Under the pieces are notes generated by a model, which searched no databases, was not told the origin of the DNA, and worked only from the letters and a program-made list of their open reading frames with translations. The translations under genes were made by a program, and so were the position numbers. Positions 1,389-10,356 of a DNA stretch of 32,033 nucleotides are shown in pieces. Within the stretch, counting starts at the first letter, position 1; each line of letters opens with the position of its first letter. Source of the DNA: Oscillospiraceae bacterium (GTDB taxonomy: Bacteria; Bacillota; Clostridia; Oscillospirales; Oscillospiraceae). The stretch is taken from NCBI GenBank assembly GCA_031264545.1, contig JAISDV010000204.1:1-32033 (forward strand), given 5' to 3'.

Positions 1389-2108
1389 ATGAGCGGCAGC
1401 TTGTCAAATCATATTGAACAGGCGCGTTTGGCGCGCGGATATACGCAGGAGCAGGTGGCTCACGCTATAGGCGTTAGCCGTCCTACCTATATCAATATCG
1501 AGTCTGGTAAAAAAGAGCTTACAGTCCGTCAGGCGGAAGCCTTGTCTTCCATGCTGAGAATTAATATGGATGACATACTGGGCGTGGCCGACGGAACATC
1601 CGTATTTTCTGATATTCTTAAGTCTACCGAAAAATATAAGCAAATGATTCTAAACGCGCTAAAATATGGCGCCGGCGAAGATGGTAAGATTACTAAAACG
1701 AAACTTGCTAAATTGGTCTATCTGGCAGACTTCATCTGGTATTATCTCAACGCATCGCCAATGTCCGGCATGACGTACCGCAAACTGCCGCGCGGGCCTG
1801 TTGCGGACGTGTATTTCCGGGCCTTAGACGAATTAGAGGAAGACGGCACAATTATCCGCGAGCCAAAGGGAAATGCGATTCTGTTCTCTCTCATAGAAAA
1901 GGAGGCCCCTTCCGGCAGCTTGTCAGACGAGGAGCTTAAGCTTATAGAAAAGATTGGGACGGCGTGGCGCGGTAAGTCTACCGACGATATTGTGAACTTT
2001 ACACGTGAGCAGTTACCCTGGCAGATTTGCAGAGATGGTGAAGTCATTCCATACGGTCTGATTACTCAGGAAGAGCCTGAGCGTGTCTATGGAACGATTC
2101 AATTATAG
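1389..2108 (+). CDS. XRE-type HTH fused to Panacea (DUF4065/SocA-like) domain; putative antitoxin
   Basis: N-terminal 'LARGYTQEQVAHAIGVSRPTYINIESGKKELTVRQAEAL' is XRE HTH; 'ITKTKLAKLVYLADFIWYYLNASPMSGMTYRKLPRGPVADVY' is DUF4065/Panacea-like. Confidence 0.85.
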   Translation: MSGSLSNHIEQARLARGYTQEQVAHAIGVSRPTYINIESGKKELTVRQAEALSSMLRINMDDILGVADGTSVFSDILKSTEKYKQMILNALKYGAGEDGKITKTKLAKLVYLADFIWYYLNASPMSGMTYRKLPRGPVADVYFRALDELEEDGTIIREPKGNAILFSLIEKEAPSGSLSDEELKLIEKIGTAWRGKSTDDIVNFTREQLPWQICRDGEVIPYGLITQEEPERVYGTIQL

Positions 2109-2630: not shown

Positions 2631-3479
2631 TCACTCCCTGAAATGCACGTGGCTGTTGATATGGTCGATGCAGAAGCAATGGTAGCCCGCGCATCTGGAG
2701 CAGAAGCGGAATTCCAGCTCAGGATGATCCCTGTCCGTTCTGCCGCAGACCTCGCACTTGCGGCTATAGGGCTTACTGGCCTGCTCCCGGGCGTACTGCC
2801 GCGCCGCGTTTTTGAAGTCGACGGTCTTCTGCCGCTGCTTCACCGACGACGGGCTGAGCTTATCGAACAGCCAGCCGCCGCAGAACAGCAGATAGTTGAG
2901 CACCGCGACGACAGGAAGAAGGTTCACCGGAAAAGGCCTGAAAATCACGGCAAACGCAAAAAAGGCGGCGTCTAAATAGGCCAGCCACTTGACCTTGACG
3001 GGGATGACGAAAAACAGCAGCACGACCGTATCGGGATAAAGCGTAGCGAAGGAAAAGAACATGGAAAGGTTGATATAGGACGCGGTGATATCGATGCCCG
3101 ACCCCCTGACCAGCCACATCAGCGTGCCGTAAAGGATGTTGAGCAGCATGCCGATAAGGTAGTAGATCGTAAACTTGCCCGAGCCCCACCGCCGTTCCAG
3201 CGCGCTTCCGATCCAGTAATAGAAATAAAGCGCGATCAGCAGCCAAAAGCCGTCCTGCTCGGGAATAAGCACAAAGCTCAGCAGCCGCCAGACCTCTCCC
3301 CTGGTGAAAATAAACTCCGCGTTGAACGTAAGCAGCGGCCGCAGCATGCTTGTCGTGTCCATAATGCCGAATAACCAGACGACCGCATTCCCGATGACGA
3401 TATAAAGCATCAGGTTCGGTAGTCCAAAACGTGGGTGCGTCAGGCAGAAGCGGTCGATCCGCCGCATAATGCGCTTCAT
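2631..3479 (-). CDS. Rhomboid-like multi-pass membrane protein with C-terminal Cys/His zinc-ribbon
   Basis: Rhomboid-like TM layout, 'GEVWRLLSFVLIP', 'FFVIPVKVKWLAYLDA'; C-terminal 'CEVCGRTDRDHPELEFRFCSRCAGYHCFCIDH'. Confidence 0.7.
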   Translation of the reverse strand: MKRIMRRIDRFCLTHPRFGLPNLMLYIVIGNAVVWLFGIMDTTSMLRPLLTFNAEFIFTRGEVWRLLSFVLIPEQDGFWLLIALYFYYWIGSALERRWGSGKFTIYYLIGMLLNILYGTLMWLVRGSGIDITASYINLSMFFSFATLYPDTVVLLFFVIPVKVKWLAYLDAAFFAFAVIFRPFPVNLLPVVAVLNYLLFCGGWLFDKLSPSSVKQRQKTVDFKNAARQYAREQASKPYSRKCEVCGRTDRDHPELEFRFCSRCAGYHCFCIDHINSHVHFRE

Positions 3480-3816
3480 AGCGTCGGTCCCTCCGATCGG
3501 AAGTGGTCTTGCTCCGGGTAATAAGATGATACCCTTTTTTTGCCCGGGTGTCTATGATATTTTTGTAAATTCAGCCATTACGGCTGCCAAAAGACATGAG
3601 GCAGACGCCAAGCCGGACCAAACCGGGCGACCGAATTCGGACTTTGAAATATTATGCTTTAAGTCCGGGCGCAAATATGCTATGATAGCTTAACGTTGTA
3701 TCCGTACCGGCGGGGCCGGCGGACGGGATACGCGTTCCGCCCGCCGCTGTGCGAGCATGATATATGGAAGGTACAGCTCCCGGCAAATGACCGACAGAGA
3801 CGAAAAGAGGCAGGCT

Positions 3817-5016
3817 ATGCGCAGAAATTACACAAACAGGGTTTTCACCTCCGAATCCGTTACGGAGGGGCATCCGGACAAAATGTGCGATCAGATATCC
3901 GACGCCGTTCTGGATACGATCATTGAAAAAGACAAAAAGGCGCGCGTCGCCTGTGAATGCATAACAACGACCGGCATGGTCGCGGTCTTCGGTGAGATCA
4001 CGACGGACTGCTATGTGGACATTCCCGCCATTGTGCGCAAAACCGTCCGCGAGATCGGCTATGACAACCCGGAATACGGCTTTGACTGTAAAACCTGTGC
4101 GGTGCTCAGCTCAATCGACGAGCAAAGCCCGGATATTGCCCTCGGCGTCGACCATGCGCTCGAAGCCAGGTCGGGCGAGGCCGACTACGACGGCGCGGAT
4201 ACCGGCGCCGGTGACCAGGGTATGATGTTCGGCTTCGCCTGCGACGAGACGCCGGAGCTGATGCCCGCGCCGATTTCCCTGGCGCATAAGCTCTCCCGCC
4301 GCCTTGCCGAGCTTCGCAAATCCGGTGAGCTGAACTGGCTGCGGCCGGACGGCAAAACGCAGGTCACCGTACAATACGGTGCGGACGGCGCCGTCGAGCG
4401 CGTTCCCGCCGTCGTCGTCTCCGCTCAGCACGGCCCCGATGCGGACATCGGCGTTCTGCGCGAGGCCGTCATGGAAACCGTGATAAAGCCCGTCATCCCC
4501 GCGGGACTCATCGACGGGAATACGAAATTCTTCATCAACCCCACCGGCCGCTTCGTCGTCGGCGGGCCCGTCGGCGATTCCGGCCTGACCGGGCGCAAGA
4601 TCATCGTCGACACCTACGGCGGCTACGCCTGTCACGGCGGCGGCTGCTTCTCCGGAAAGGACCCCACCAAGGTTGACCGGAGCGCCGCCTATATGGCGCG
4701 CTATGTTGCCAAGAACCTTGTCGCCGCCGGTCTGGCCAGCCGGTGCCAGATCGAGCTCGCCTACGCGATCGGGGTCGCAAGCCCCGTCTCCGTCGTGGTC
4801 GACACGCAGGGCACAGGCCGTATCCCCGACGAGCGCATCGCTGAAATCGTATCCGTCTGCTTCGACCTGCGGCCGGCAAGGATCATCAAAAAGCTCGACC
4901 TGCTGCGTCCGATCTACCGGCAGCTTGCGGCCTACGGGCATTTCGGCCGGACGGATATCGACCTGCCCTGGGAGCGCACGGACCTGTCCGAGGTCCTGCG
5001 CGAACGCGCAAGATGA
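3817..5016 (+). CDS. metK: S-adenosylmethionine synthetase
   Basis: '[24 protein letters not shown]', '[21 protein letters not shown]', '[15 protein letters not shown]'; ATG at 3817 preferred over the ORF-track start 3757. Confidence 0.97.
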
Positions 5017-5043: not shown

Positions 5044-5796
5044 ATGGATTTTGAAAACGACCGCGAGGACCTGATCGAGGGGCGAAACGCCGTTATCGAG
5101 GCGCTCCGCGCAGGCAGAACAATCGACAAAATATTTATTCAGAAGGGCGAGACGGACAAGACCCTCGGACATATCGCCTCGAAAGCGCGGGACGCCGGCG
5201 TCGTCGTGGTCGACGCGGATAAAAGAAAGCTCGACGCACTGAGCAAGACGCACGCGCATCAGGGTGTCGTCGCGCTGACCGCTGTGCGGGAATACTGCAC
5301 TGTCGCGGACCTTCTGGCAACCGCCGCCGTGCGGAACGAGCCGCCTTTCATCGTCGCCTGCGACGAGCTGAGCGACCCGCATAATCTCGGTGCGGTCATC
5401 CGGACGGCTGAGGCCGCCGGCGTCCACGGCATCGTCATTCCCAAGCGGCGCAGCGCCGGACTGACCGCCATCGTCGGCAAAACGAGCGCGGGGGCGGCCG
5501 AGCACATGGCGGTCGCGCGCGTAGCGAATCTCAGCGCCGCGCTGCGCGAGCTGAAAGAGGCCGGGGTCTGGATATTCGGCGCCGCGGCGGAGGGCGCAAG
5601 CCCGCTCTGGAAAACCGATCTGAAAGGGCCGGTCTGTCTCGTTATCGGTTCCGAGGGCAGCGGCATTTCAAGGCTTATTCGGGAAAATTGCGATTTTCTC
5701 GTGCGCATCCCCATGAAGGGTCAAATCTCCTCCCTCAACGCGAGTACGGCGGCGGCTGTCCTCATCTATGAGGCCTTGCGCCAGCGGGGCGTTTAG
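5044..5796 (+). CDS. rlmB: 23S rRNA (guanosine-2'-O-)-methyltransferase, RlmB/TrmH (SpoU) family
   Basis: 'DLIEGRNAVIEALRAGRTIDKIFI', 'DPHNLGAVIRTAEAAGVHGIVIPKRRSAGLT', 'VIGSEGSGISRLIRENCD..IPMKGQISSLNASTAAAVLIYE'. Confidence 0.93.
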   Translation: MDFENDREDLIEGRNAVIEALRAGRTIDKIFIQKGETDKTLGHIASKARDAGVVVVDADKRKLDALSKTHAHQGVVALTAVREYCTVADLLATAAVRNEPPFIVACDELSDPHNLGAVIRTAEAAGVHGIVIPKRRSAGLTAIVGKTSAGAAEHMAVARVANLSAALRELKEAGVWIFGAAAEGASPLWKTDLKGPVCLVIGSEGSGISRLIRENCDFLVRIPMKGQISSLNASTAAAVLIYEALRQRGV

Positions 5797-5862: not shown

Positions 5863-8103
5863 ATGGATAATTTTACCTACGAAAAGAATAGCGATCCGGA
5901 AGACAGCGCCGAGCTTTCCGTCGATTCCATTCTGGCCGAGTTTAAGGCGGAAGAGCAGGTTGAGGCGCTTATCGGAGGCGCGGTCTCGGAAGCTGCGGCC
6001 GTCTCAGTCACAGAAGCCGCTGTTTCCGCCGCCACCGGTGAGTCCGCCGCGGATTTCACCGCGCCGCAGCCGGAGTCCGCTCAGGCCGGGACGGATTTTT
6101 CTCTTGACGATTTGCTGGAGGACGCCAGATATTATGAGCCCGATGCTCCGGGCGACGTGCAGGCGCGGGGCACGGACAGACGCGCCGCCGCGCCGCCGGC
6201 GGACGGGACTGCCACAGTCATTTTTGAGAAGATCCCAAGGACGGATGAGGACGCGGTCTGGGCGGAGAGTTCGGAAGCTGCCCGGGAGCGGGATAAATAT
6301 GCGCCGCGCCGCGAATACGCCCTGCCGGAGGACGGTGAGGATGCTGGGCCCGCCGCGCGGGAAGGCGGCGTTAACCCGCTGATCACCCTCATCGCCGCAG
6401 CCTCGGCAAAACGCGCGGAAAAGCGCCGGACAGAGCGGGCACGGAAGGCGCGGGAGGAAAAGGGCCTTCCGCCCGAAATGCGCCCGGAAAAGGCGGCTCT
6501 GCTTTATATGGATCAGGCCGCCGCCATTCGCCTGCGGCTGCTGCTCTCGGTTTTTCTCAGCCTTACGCTCGTCTGGCTGAGCTACGGCCTTCCCGCTATG
6601 GGCAGCCTCGGTTCCAGCGGCTATGTGCGGACGCTGGTTTGTCTGATACTGATGCTCGTTTCGATGGTCGTGGGGCTTGACATTGTAACGACAGGTCTTA
6701 TGACCCTGTTCGCCAAAAAGCCCGGTCCGGAATCCCTCGTTGTGCTGTCCTGCCTTTTTTCCGCGGCGGACGCGGCCTATATCCTCGTCTCCGGCAACAC
6801 GGCGGACGGACTGCCTTTCTGCGCCGTTTCCGCCCTCTCGCTCAGCTTTGCCCTCTGGGGCGCCTACCTGAACTGCCGTAGCTTTGTGCTGAGCTTCCAC
6901 ACCGCGGCGCTTGCGAAGTCCCCCTCGGTCATCCTCTCCGAGGAAGGCGGTGAGGCGTTCGGCCGCGTCCTCGTCAAGGTCCAGCGCCCTGTTACGGGCT
7001 TTGTGCGGAAGAGCGAAGAGGCGGACGTTTTTGAAAAGGCCTTCCGGCTCTTTTCGCCGCTGCTGATCGCCTTTGCGGCAATACTCAGCCTGTTCTGCTT
7101 CCTGGCCGGCAAGGGCTGCGACAATCTGACGCACACGCTCTCGGCGGCCTTTTCGGTCTGTGCGTCGTTTTCCGCCGTGTTCGGCTTTGCGCTGCCCTTC
7201 TATGTGCTCACAAAGCGGCTCGCGCGCAGCGGCGCGGCAGTCGCGGGCTACGCGGGCTGCTCCGAGCTGGGCAGGGTCAATCCGGTCGTCGTCAAGGACG
7301 GGGATATTTTCCCCATTCGGACGCTTTCCATCGCCAATGTGACGATACCCGAGGGCTTTTACCCGGATAAGGTCATCTCTTACACTGCCAGTATGGTTGC
7401 CGCCGCCGGAATGGGCATCGCCCCGGTTTTTACGGAGCTGATGAAGAAAAACGGCTGCAGCATGAAAAAGGTCGAGGATTTCGCCTGCCACGAGGGCGGC
7501 GGTATCATCGCGCGGATAAACGGCGACCGGGTTTATATCGGTTCATCGAGCTTTATGCAGCTCATGGGCATACGCGCCGACAAGGGCGCGGGCTCACAGA
7601 GCGCCGTGTACACCGCGATAAACGACGCGCCCGCCGGCATATTCGAGATAAATTACGTCCCGGTCTCGTCCGTTCAGCGGGGGCTCGTCACGCTCCTGCG
7701 CGGCAGCACGGAGCCGGTTTTCGCCGTAAGGGATTTTAATATCACGCCCCTGCTTGTCCGGCAGAAGTTTCGTCTGCCCAGAGAGAGCTACGACTTTCCC
7801 TCCTTTGCAGACCGCTATGCGATCTCTTCCGCAGAGACCGAGGCCGGCGGCAGCGTCGTCGCCATGTTCGCCCGCGGGGGCCTGAATGCCGTCGCCGGGC
7901 TGGTAAAGCGCGGCAAAGCGCTCTATAACGGGCTTCTGCTGTGCGCCGTGCTCTCGGTTCTCGGCGCGTTCGCGGGCCTGCTCCTGATGCTCTCGATGTG
8001 CTGGACCGGGGCCTACGGCTCAGCCGGCGTCACCAACGCAATCTCGTTCATGCTGCTCTGGCTGGTGCCGGTGCTTGTGATCGCCATCGGCCAGAGAAGA
8101 TAG
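5863..8103 (+). CDS. Large membrane protein resembling a catalytically degenerate P-type (P1B-like) ATPase with acidic disordered N-terminus
   Basis: TM segments plus 'GRVNPVVVKDGDIFP' at the position expected for DKTGT, and an N-domain-like 'HEGGGIIARINGDRVYIGSSSFMQLMGI'; no DKTGT or GDGxND motif seen. Confidence 0.65.
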   Translation: MDNFTYEKNSDPEDSAELSVDSILAEFKAEEQVEALIGGAVSEAAAVSVTEAAVSAATGESAADFTAPQPESAQAGTDFSLDDLLEDARYYEPDAPGDVQARGTDRRAAAPPADGTATVIFEKIPRTDEDAVWAESSEAARERDKYAPRREYALPEDGEDAGPAAREGGVNPLITLIAAASAKRAEKRRTERARKAREEKGLPPEMRPEKAALLYMDQAAAIRLRLLLSVFLSLTLVWLSYGLPAMGSLGSSGYVRTLVCLILMLVSMVVGLDIVTTGLMTLFAKKPGPESLVVLSCLFSAADAAYILVSGNTADGLPFCAVSALSLSFALWGAYLNCRSFVLSFHTAALAKSPSVILSEEGGEAFGRVLVKVQRPVTGFVRKSEEADVFEKAFRLFSPLLIAFAAILSLFCFLAGKGCDNLTHTLSAAFSVCASFSAVFGFALPFYVLTKRLARSGAAVAGYAGCSELGRVNPVVVKDGDIFPIRTLSIANVTIPEGFYPDKVISYTASMVAAAGMGIAPVFTELMKKNGCSMKKVEDFACHEGGGIIARINGDRVYIGSSSFMQLMGIRADKGAGSQSAVYTAINDAPAGIFEINYVPVSSVQRGLVTLLRGSTEPVFAVRDFNITPLLVRQKFRLPRESYDFPSFADRYAISSAETEAGGSVVAMFARGGLNAVAGLVKRGKALYNGLLLCAVLSVLGAFAGLLLMLSMCWTGAYGSAGVTNAISFMLLWLVPVLVIAIGQRR

Positions 8104-8316: not shown

Positions 8317-10356
8317 ATGAGCTATGCAATAAAGAACATACGCAATATCTGTCTCTTAGGCCACGGAGGCAACGGAAAAACCAGTCTTGCCGAGAGCATT
8401 CTTTTTATGACCGGCGCGACAGACAGGCTTGGAAGGGTGGCCGACGGGACGACGGTTTCCGATTTTGACTCGGAAGAGATCCGCCGCAAGATCAGCATCG
8501 CCGATTCCGCCATGTTCTGCGAATACGGCGGCGTTAAAATAAATATCATCGACACCCCGGGCTACTTCGACTTTGCCGGCGAGGTCGCCCAGGCGCTCCG
8601 CGTCGCGGACGCGGGCATCGTCGTCTGCTCGGCCAAGGACGGCCTGAACGTCGGCGCCGAGAAAGCCTGGAAGGCCCTCACGGAGGCTAAAAAGCCCCGC
8701 GCCATCTTCATCTCCAGGTCCGACGAGGAAAATGCGAATTACGATAGAGCCTTCAGCTCCCTGCGCGAAAAGTTCGGCGTCTCCGTCTGCCCGATGGTCG
8801 CGCCCATTGTTGAAAATGAAAAAATCACCGGCCTGATCGAGATCGCGACCAGGAAAGCTTATCAATTCGACGCGAAGGGCAAGCGCGGAGAGATTCCTGT
8901 GCCCGAAAGCATGCAGGCCGAGCTTTCCAAGCTCTACAACACCCTCGCGGAGGGTATCGCCGAGACCAGCGAGGAACTGATGGACAAATATTTCGGCGGC
9001 GAGGCCTTCACCCAGGCTGAAATGAGCGCCGCGCTCGGCGAGGGCCTGCGCGACGGCTCTATCTGCCCCGTCTTTTGCGGCAGCGCGCTTACCTTCCTCG
9101 GCGTCTCCCTGCTGCTCGATGCCATCGTCAGCTACTTTCCCACCCCGCACGAGGGCGCCGATCCGGTGAATGAAGCCGGACCCTCCGCAGCCGTTATTTA
9201 CAAAACCGTCTCCGACCAATACGGCAAATTCAGCCTGTTCAAGGTCGTTTCCGGCAAGATCACGAACGACATGACCCTCATCAATCCCCGCACGGGCACG
9301 AGCGAAAAGATCGGCCATATCTATGTCATGCAGGGCAAGAAGAATATCGAGGTCAACGAAATCTCCTGCGGAGACCTCGGCGCGGTGTCCAAGCTCTCGG
9401 ACACCAAGACGGGCGATACGCTCTGCGCGGCCTCGCTCAACAAGGCGCTTCCGGGCATCAGCTATGCCGCCCCCTGCTACGCCATGGCCATCGCCCCCAA
9501 GACTAAGGGGCAGGAAGACAAGATCGCCATGGGTCTTTCCCGCCTTTCCGAGGAGGATCTCACTTTCACCTATACCAACAACGCCGAAACGCATCAGCTC
9601 GTCATCTCCGGCGCGGGCGATATCCACCTGGACACGCTCTGCTCCAAGCTCAGGAACAAGTTCGGCGTTGACGTCGTGCTGAGCCCCGCCCGCGTACCCT
9701 ACCGCGAGAAGATCCGCGGCAAGGTCAAGGTCCAGGGACGCCACAAGAAGCAGTCCGGCGGACACGGCCAGTTCGGCGACGTCTGGATCGAATTCGAGCC
9801 GCAGAGCGAAACCGAAGACCTCGTTTTCGCTGAAAGCGTCTTCGGCGGCGCGGTTCCCAAAAACTTCTTCCCCGCCGTTGAGAAGGGTCTCCGCGAGAGC
9901 ATCCAGAAGGGTGTGCTCGCGGGCTACCCGGTCGTTTTTCTCAAGGCCACGCTGGTCGATGGTTCCTATCACCCCGTCGACTCCTCTGAAATGGCCTTTA
10001 AAACCGCCGCCAGTCTCGCCTATAAGGCCGGCCTTCCCAAGGCGAACCCCGTGATCCTCGAGCCGATCGCTTCTCTCAAAGTCACAATTCCGGACGCCTA
10101 TATGGGCGATATCATGTCCGACCTTTCCAAGCGCCGCGGCAACCCCATGGGCATGAGCGCACATGACGGTATGCAGATCGTCGAAGCCGAGGTTCCGATG
10201 GCCGAAATGGGCAGCTATGCCATCGACCTGCGCTCTATGACGCAGGGACGCGGCAGCTTCACCTTCGCGTTCGTCCGTTATGAGGAAACCCCCGCTATGA
10301 TTCAGCAAAAGATCATAGAGGAGGCCAAGGCGCTCGCCTCCGGCGACGAGGACTGA
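8317..10356 (+). CDS. Elongation factor G-like translational GTPase (EF-G paralogue)
   Basis: P-loop 'GHGGNGKTSL', 'DTPGYFDF', EF-G domain IV/V 'KVKVQGRHKKQSGGHGQFGDVWIEFEP', 'MTQGRGSFTFAFVRYEETP'. Confidence 0.93.
   Translation: MSYAIKNIRNICLLGHGGNGKTSLAESILFMTGATDRLGRVADGTTVSDFDSEEIRRKISIADSAMFCEYGGVKINIIDTPGYFDFAGEVAQALRVADAGIVVCSAKDGLNVGAEKAWKALTEAKKPRAIFISRSDEENANYDRAFSSLREKFGVSVCPMVAPIVENEKITGLIEIATRKAYQFDAKGKRGEIPVPESMQAELSKLYNTLAEGIAETSEELMDKYFGGEAFTQAEMSAALGEGLRDGSICPVFCGSALTFLGVSLLLDAIVSYFPTPHEGADPVNEAGPSAAVIYKTVSDQYGKFSLFKVVSGKITNDMTLINPRTGTSEKIGHIYVMQGKKNIEVNEISCGDLGAVSKLSDTKTGDTLCAASLNKALPGISYAAPCYAMAIAPKTKGQEDKIAMGLSRLSEEDLTFTYTNNAETHQLVISGAGDIHLDTLCSKLRNKFGVDVVLSPARVPYREKIRGKVKVQGRHKKQSGGHGQFGDVWIEFEPQSETEDLVFAESVFGGAVPKNFFPAVEKGLRESIQKGVLAGYPVVFLKATLVDGSYHPVDSSEMAFKTAASLAYKAGLPKANPVILEPIASLKVTIPDAYMGDIMSDLSKRRGNPMGMSAHDGMQIVEAEVPMAEMGSYAIDLRSMTQGRGSFTFAFVRYEETPAMIQQKIIEEAKALASGDED

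Follow-up and report, generated by a model that had tools for sequence, protein, structure and literature searches.

An apparent pseudo-P1B-type ATPase, near-universal in one order of Clostridia, carries a tail motif shared with signal peptidase II

The 746-residue protein encoded on the forward strand at positions 5863-8103 of the window (the whole analysed stretch of 32,033 nucleotides) is almost certainly a P1B-type ATPase that does not pump. Comparison of sequences and profiles gives good support to a pseudoenzyme descended from the CopA-type heavy-metal ATPases, with loss of the pumping activity. The gene belongs to the core set of one Clostridia order, being present in nearly every genome, and the disordered N-terminal tail of the protein carries a conserved motif, new here, that is common to the pseudo-ATPase and to tail-extended forms of the signal peptidase II LspA. 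The open reading frame given in a preliminary description of this DNA was confirmed, both peptides quoted there are present in its translation, and the pseudo-P-type ATPase which that description proposed is borne out by sequence, profile and fold. The features of the locus and of the protein are as follows.

3757-5016, forward: metK, upstream of rlmB and on the same strand in the closest relatives (TIGR01034, E 6.8e-174)
5044-5796, forward: rlmB, 23S rRNA G2251 2'-O-methyltransferase, immediately upstream (TIGR00186, E 2.5e-70)
5863-8103, forward: apparent pseudo-P1B ATPase gene, 746 aa (homology and predicted fold)
5863-6372, forward: N-terminal tail, residues 1-170, predicted to be mostly disordered (AlphaFold2 pLDDT)
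5914-5943, forward: tail motif LSVDSILAEF, residues 18-27 (conservation)
6484-6912, forward: predicted transmembrane segments MA, MB, M1 and M2, residues 208-350 (AlphaFold2 helices)
6913-7026, forward: A-domain remnant without TGES, residues 351-388 (model and alignment)
7027-7230, forward: M3-M4, residues 389-456, ASF replacing CPC (model and alignment)
7294-7314, forward: KDGDIFP, residues 478-484, replacing DKTGTLT; family motif DxDxFP (alignments)
7363-7662, forward: N-domain-like region, residues 501-600 (homology and conservation)
7663-7878, forward: second half of the P domain, shortened and without GDGxND, residues 601-672 (model and alignment)
7729-7734, forward: Arg623-Asp624, remnant of TGD (alignment; the Asp is retained in 67/69 homologues)
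7879-8100, forward: M5-M6, residues 673-746 (model)
8317-10356, forward: EF-G paralogue, following the ATPase gene in some of the lineages (NF009381, E 2.4e-259)

Descent from P1B-type pumps

The 746-aa protein gave no Pfam match, and its best NCBIfam match, to ZntA, was sub-threshold (E 0.006). A phmmer comparison with the CopA structure 3rfu returned E 2.5e-6, with KDGDI aligned on DKTGT. A profile built solely from DKTGT-less proteins matched the same genuine CopA in the PDB at E 2.4e-38 and genuine pumps of other Clostridia at E values down to 4.6e-64. Since a DKTGT-less profile recovers genuine CopA, the homology to P1B ATPases, found both by sequence and by profile, is far beyond chance, and the profile evidence for this descent is independent of any structure model. 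The same genome also encodes a genuine CopA-like pump with DKTGT, which is 25% identical to the 746-aa protein over the matched part.

AlphaFold2 was used to model the window protein (pLDDT 77.6, pTM 0.69) and a shorter homologue (pLDDT 85.5, pTM 0.78); in both models the elements follow each other as in P1B pumps, with eight predicted transmembrane helices, the first four of which (MA, MB, M1 and M2) span residues 208-240, 253-283, 289-310 and 320-350 of the window protein. When these models were compared with P-type ATPases using Foldseek, a check that the preliminary description had proposed, the top matches were P1B pumps: CopA 4bbj was the best PDB match of both (E 8.8e-17 and 7.3e-15, about 676 columns), and the top matches comprised CopA, ATP7B, HMA4 and ZntA, then KdpB. 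The query TM-scores of the best full-length matches were moderate, about 0.33-0.48, which we attribute to domain movement and to the largely missing A domain; only about 39 residues separate M2 from M3, where an A domain with TGES is expected. A structure search of the viral library gave no informative match.

Loss of the catalytic motifs

Motifs were compared in an alignment of 69 pseudo-ATPases with 18 genuine P1B ATPases, in which all motifs are intact. In the window protein KDGDI stands in place of DKTGT, AGMG in place of SEHP, ASF in place of CPC and VRD in place of TGD, and both TGES and GDGxND fall in gaps. The same losses were observed throughout the alignment. The Lys, Gly and final Thr of DKTGT occur in 0/69 pseudo members, the motif being destroyed in every homologue examined; the ATP-site His of the N-domain HP motif and the CPC metal site of M4 are likewise found in 0/69, the Gly of TGD in 0/69 (its Asp in 67/69), and TGES and GDGxND are gaps in 69/69, the latter string appearing nowhere in the 69 sequences. 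Judged by its sequence, phosphoenzyme formation and the pump cycle would be impossible for this protein. A TGES string that occurs in the tail of the window protein is a chance one, outside the A domain.

The preliminary description had reported that the phosphoacceptor Asp is replaced by Lys and that GDGxND is absent, and had asked whether the loss of DKTGT is conserved. The absence of GDGxND was upheld, and the loss is general, the rest of DKTGT being gone in 69/69 with no intact close orthologue. The replacement by Lys is correct for the window protein, in which Lys478 occupies the phosphoacceptor column, but does not extend throughout the order, as the residue in this column varies (D 21, T 16, S 8, R 6 and K 5 among the 69) and is even Asp in some members. 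Likewise, the claim that the cytoplasmic fold is kept holds for the N domain and partly for the P domain, but not for the A domain, reduced to some 39 residues, nor for the GDGxND stretch of the P domain, which is lost.

An initial alignment, A1, of 29 members showed DxDxFP at the DKTGT site, the DxD being invariant in all 29, a conserved N-domain stretch GGG...GSSxFMxLMGI and RDFNITP at the TGDN site. The N domain, in which Gly547 and Gly560 are near invariant, is the best conserved region in the close family, and the membrane segments are conserved less; Gly278, Pro445 and Trp733 (in the M5-M6 region, present in 91% of homologues) are conserved residues in or near the membrane part.

Distribution and gene neighbourhood

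Within the same taxonomic family a match was found in 140/151 genomes, including 96 of the 97 good ones. With a wider alignment of 69 members (A2) as the query for 199 genomes of the order, and a strong match defined as E at most 1e-76, strong matches were obtained in 188/199 genomes and in 152 of the 156 of good quality; in the four good genomes without one, the best matches were genuine pumps. Conversely, 0/280 genomes from other orders of the class gave a strong match, the best hit (E 2.7e-40) being a partial one on a DKTGT-bearing pump. The distribution is thus two-peaked and order-wide, with strong matches in the order at E at most 1e-76 and 2.7e-40 as the best value outside it. Eight of the weakest strong matches were inspected, and all of them lack DKTGT and adjoin rlmB. 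A few homologues have an in-frame stop, and many of the genomes resemble metagenome assemblies. Tail length varies within the order: homologues of some lineages (f23, e.g. L091, L092 and L144) have tails of about 600-900 residues, and pseudo-ATPases of about 545 aa in family f10 (L094, L095, L096, L138, L139 and L147) are without the entire N-terminal tail. Several members of one genus in f10 are also without SpoIVA.

Synteny, as determined by tblastn, is close to constant on the upstream side, rlmB being the next gene upstream on the same strand in 81/82 loci; the remaining locus stops at a contig border. Among the 81 is L122, where an in-frame stop interrupts the reading frame of the pseudo-ATPase. 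On the downstream side, 16/38 loci have an EF-G paralogue within 500 bp. Further upstream in the window lie a Bro-N protein (172-1041), a gene encoding a fusion of an HTH domain with a SocA/Panacea antitoxin domain (1389-2108, forward strand) and, on the reverse strand, a Rhomboid/Der1-like membrane protein with weak Pfam matches (2631-3479), the last of which has a position upstream of metK that the nearest relatives share.

A tail motif shared with LspA

The N-terminal tail of the window protein has pLDDT below 50 at residues 1-18 and 43-169, and the disordered tails of the family carry a motif with the consensus (F/Y)S(L)(D/E)xILxE(F/Y). In A1 the motif (residues 19-28) is conserved at 3.23 bits per column, about equal to the core (2.61), and the remainder of the tail has 1.36; Ile23 is invariant in the 29 family members. 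The strict form of the motif was found in 31 tails, where 0.005 were expected from shuffles, and a loose form within the first 60 residues in 63/87 tails against 0.58 expected; in the other 24/87 tails it was undetected within these 60 residues. As to a possible packing of the motif helix on the core of the same protein, the block reached pLDDT values of 65 and 72 in two AlphaFold2 runs. At residues 79-88 (positions 6097-6126), farther from the N-terminus, the tail of the window protein contains FSLDDLLEDA, which resembles a second copy of the motif.

When a DNA pattern for the motif was run on the 151 genomes, more than 100 matches were obtained, against 2 for the reversed control. Those matches that were not pseudo-ATPases were mostly LspA: 17 LspA proteins with a long C-terminal extension carried the motif, mostly 1-5 residues from the C-terminus, a number that is a lower bound as it derives from one strict pattern. 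The LspA of the window genome (L223:595-1497, forward strand, G000:C152; Peptidase_A8, E 2.8e-37 in Pfam) has such a tail, which ends in GFSIDDIIAEFRDK*. Genome G081 encodes a second degenerate P1B ATPase (L263:12428-14944, reverse strand), which also has the motif at its C-terminus, in an acidic tail that ends in MEFTLEDILKEFRDQ*; this protein has FGKTGVLTEG, i.e. GKTGV for DKTGT, and is without TGES and GDGxND, and its nearest relatives, in G098 and G101, are less degenerate and retain DKTG. Similarly, an ABC-2 type permease from another family of the order (L262:1927-3234, reverse strand, G254) has the same motif at its N-terminus, which starts MSDKFSIDDILAEIGSDKD. The C-termini of LspA and the N-termini of P-type ATPases are cytoplasmic, so the motif is positioned to bind something intracellular, and as a shared element it offers a concrete handle on what the fold was re-used for.

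Proposed role and alternative explanations

The explanation that we favour, with a probability of roughly 55%, is that a dead P1B pump was fixed early in the order and serves as a membrane scaffold or sensor that docks via its tail motif. The gene became a core gene directly downstream of rlmB; of the pump, the protein retains eight predicted transmembrane helices, the N domain and a P domain that has been trimmed, and a long disordered tail is added to these. Anchored in the membrane, it would act as a scaffold or sensor, with the tail motif binding a putative hub. LspA, through the motif on its C-terminal tail, and a small number of further membrane proteins with the motif would bind to the same hub, and the motif carriers would thereby be gathered into one complex. 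The N domain, in turn, may read a ligand or partner and so change the docking state. We infer the role of scaffold or sensor and the common hub from the sharing of the motif together with the conservation of the N domain; 'sensor or scaffold' was already among the roles named in the preliminary description, and the shared docking-type motif speaks for it. The more specific proposal, that ILxE(F/Y), as a terminal motif of the pseudo-pump, of LspA and of a small number of further membrane proteins, constitutes a docking code private to the order and read by one putative hub, so that the dead pump organises an envelope complex, is tentative, and we would put it at appreciably less than even odds. 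If true, this complex would include lipoprotein maturation. The docking proposal is weakened by the fact that no partner of the motif was found; docking is also not the sole role, given the 24 of 87 tails in which the motif went undetected within the first 60 residues and the missing tail of f10, and the LspA link may be lineage-specific since the strict pattern detected LspA with the motif in no more than 17 of the 151 genomes. The rlmB neighbourhood contains no pointer to LspA.

The constancy of that neighbourhood, with rlmB adjacent in nearly all loci and the EF-G paralogue a near neighbour on the downstream side in 16 of 38, would also fit a membrane-located regulator of translation or ribosome assembly that acts together with RlmB and the EF-G paralogue. 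We consider this unlikely, as the adjacency could be mere operon history, EF-G is often missing from the locus, and the motif matches beyond the pseudo-ATPase are mostly LspA. Transport independent of ATP, in which the membrane domain was kept for conduction as a channel or secondary transporter and the ATPase parts decayed, is slightly less probable still: all eight predicted helices are retained and Gly278, Pro445 and Trp733 are conserved, but CPC is gone, and it is the N domain, not the membrane segments, that is best conserved in the close family.

The preliminary description had also raised a link to sporulation. A sporulation-specific membrane protein would agree with the presence of SpoIVA in 175/199 genomes of the order, but the scan of these genomes does not sustain the link: eight genomes without SpoIVA, at least 90% complete, keep the gene at E <1e-120 (good SpoIVA-less genomes with the pseudo-ATPase include G175, G177, G187, G201, G216, G223, G229 and G255), and no sporulation genes were seen adjoining it, which makes this reading quite improbable. 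Marginally lower still we place a HAD-type phosphatase or phosphotransferase using a shifted DxD (Asp479 and Asp481) with Asp624. In favour are the invariance of DxD in the close family and the near-constant Asp624; only some two thirds of the wider set, however, retain the two DxD aspartates, TGES is gone, and of the HAD phosphatase signature (DxD, motif II Ser/Thr, motif III Lys/Arg and acidic motif IV) the acidic motif IV, which in P-type ATPases is GDGxND, is deleted. Catalysis via the shifted DxD was rejected, as this pair occurs in only part of the order. A decaying pseudogene, a local mutation or a sequencing error would account for the missing motifs and nothing else, and can practically be dismissed: the frames are open, identical losses recur in more than 20 families of the order and residue conservation is strong, so that the orthologues refute decay or mutation of a single gene.

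Relation to known systems

P-type ATPases are defined by phosphoenzyme chemistry, and in the open-access literature searched no bacterial family was found described in which the P-type fold persists in the absence of that chemistry. The present pseudoenzyme is such a case; nearly all genomes of an entire bacterial order have it as a core gene, and no Pfam model names it. The libraries and open-licence literature searched yielded nothing relevant on bacterial pseudo-P-type ATPases or LspA tails, which is weak evidence of absence; in a 2023 review of P-type ATPases the words 'inactive' and 'degenerate' are absent and 'pseudo' has no relevant use. Compared with the P1B-type ATPases CopA and ZntA, the pseudo-ATPase shares descent, the eight-helix topology, the N domain and part of the P domain, but has lost the phosphorylation and dephosphorylation motifs, the ATP-site His and the CPC metal motif, its A domain is mostly deleted, and a long disordered, motif-bearing N-tail stands in place of the metal-binding domains.

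Docking motifs on the tails of bacterial membrane proteins are known, e.g. those read by GpsB or bound by FtsZ partners. The similarity lies in a short conserved motif on the tails of unrelated membrane proteins; the sequences differ from the ILxE(F/Y) motif, the reader of which would here be a putative hub. Among P-type ATPases with functions other than pumping, the apicomplexan guanylyl cyclase with a P4-ATPase domain likewise has the fold serving signalling, albeit in a eukaryote and in another P-type class, and it keeps the conserved DKTGT Asp, which is needed according to the evidence of its authors (PMC7858053). Similarly, pump-independent roles are debated for C. elegans CATP-1, a P-type ATPase with proposed non-pumping functions; unlike the pseudo-ATPase described here, it retains the DKTGT Asp, and a change at this position has an effect (PMC11631496).
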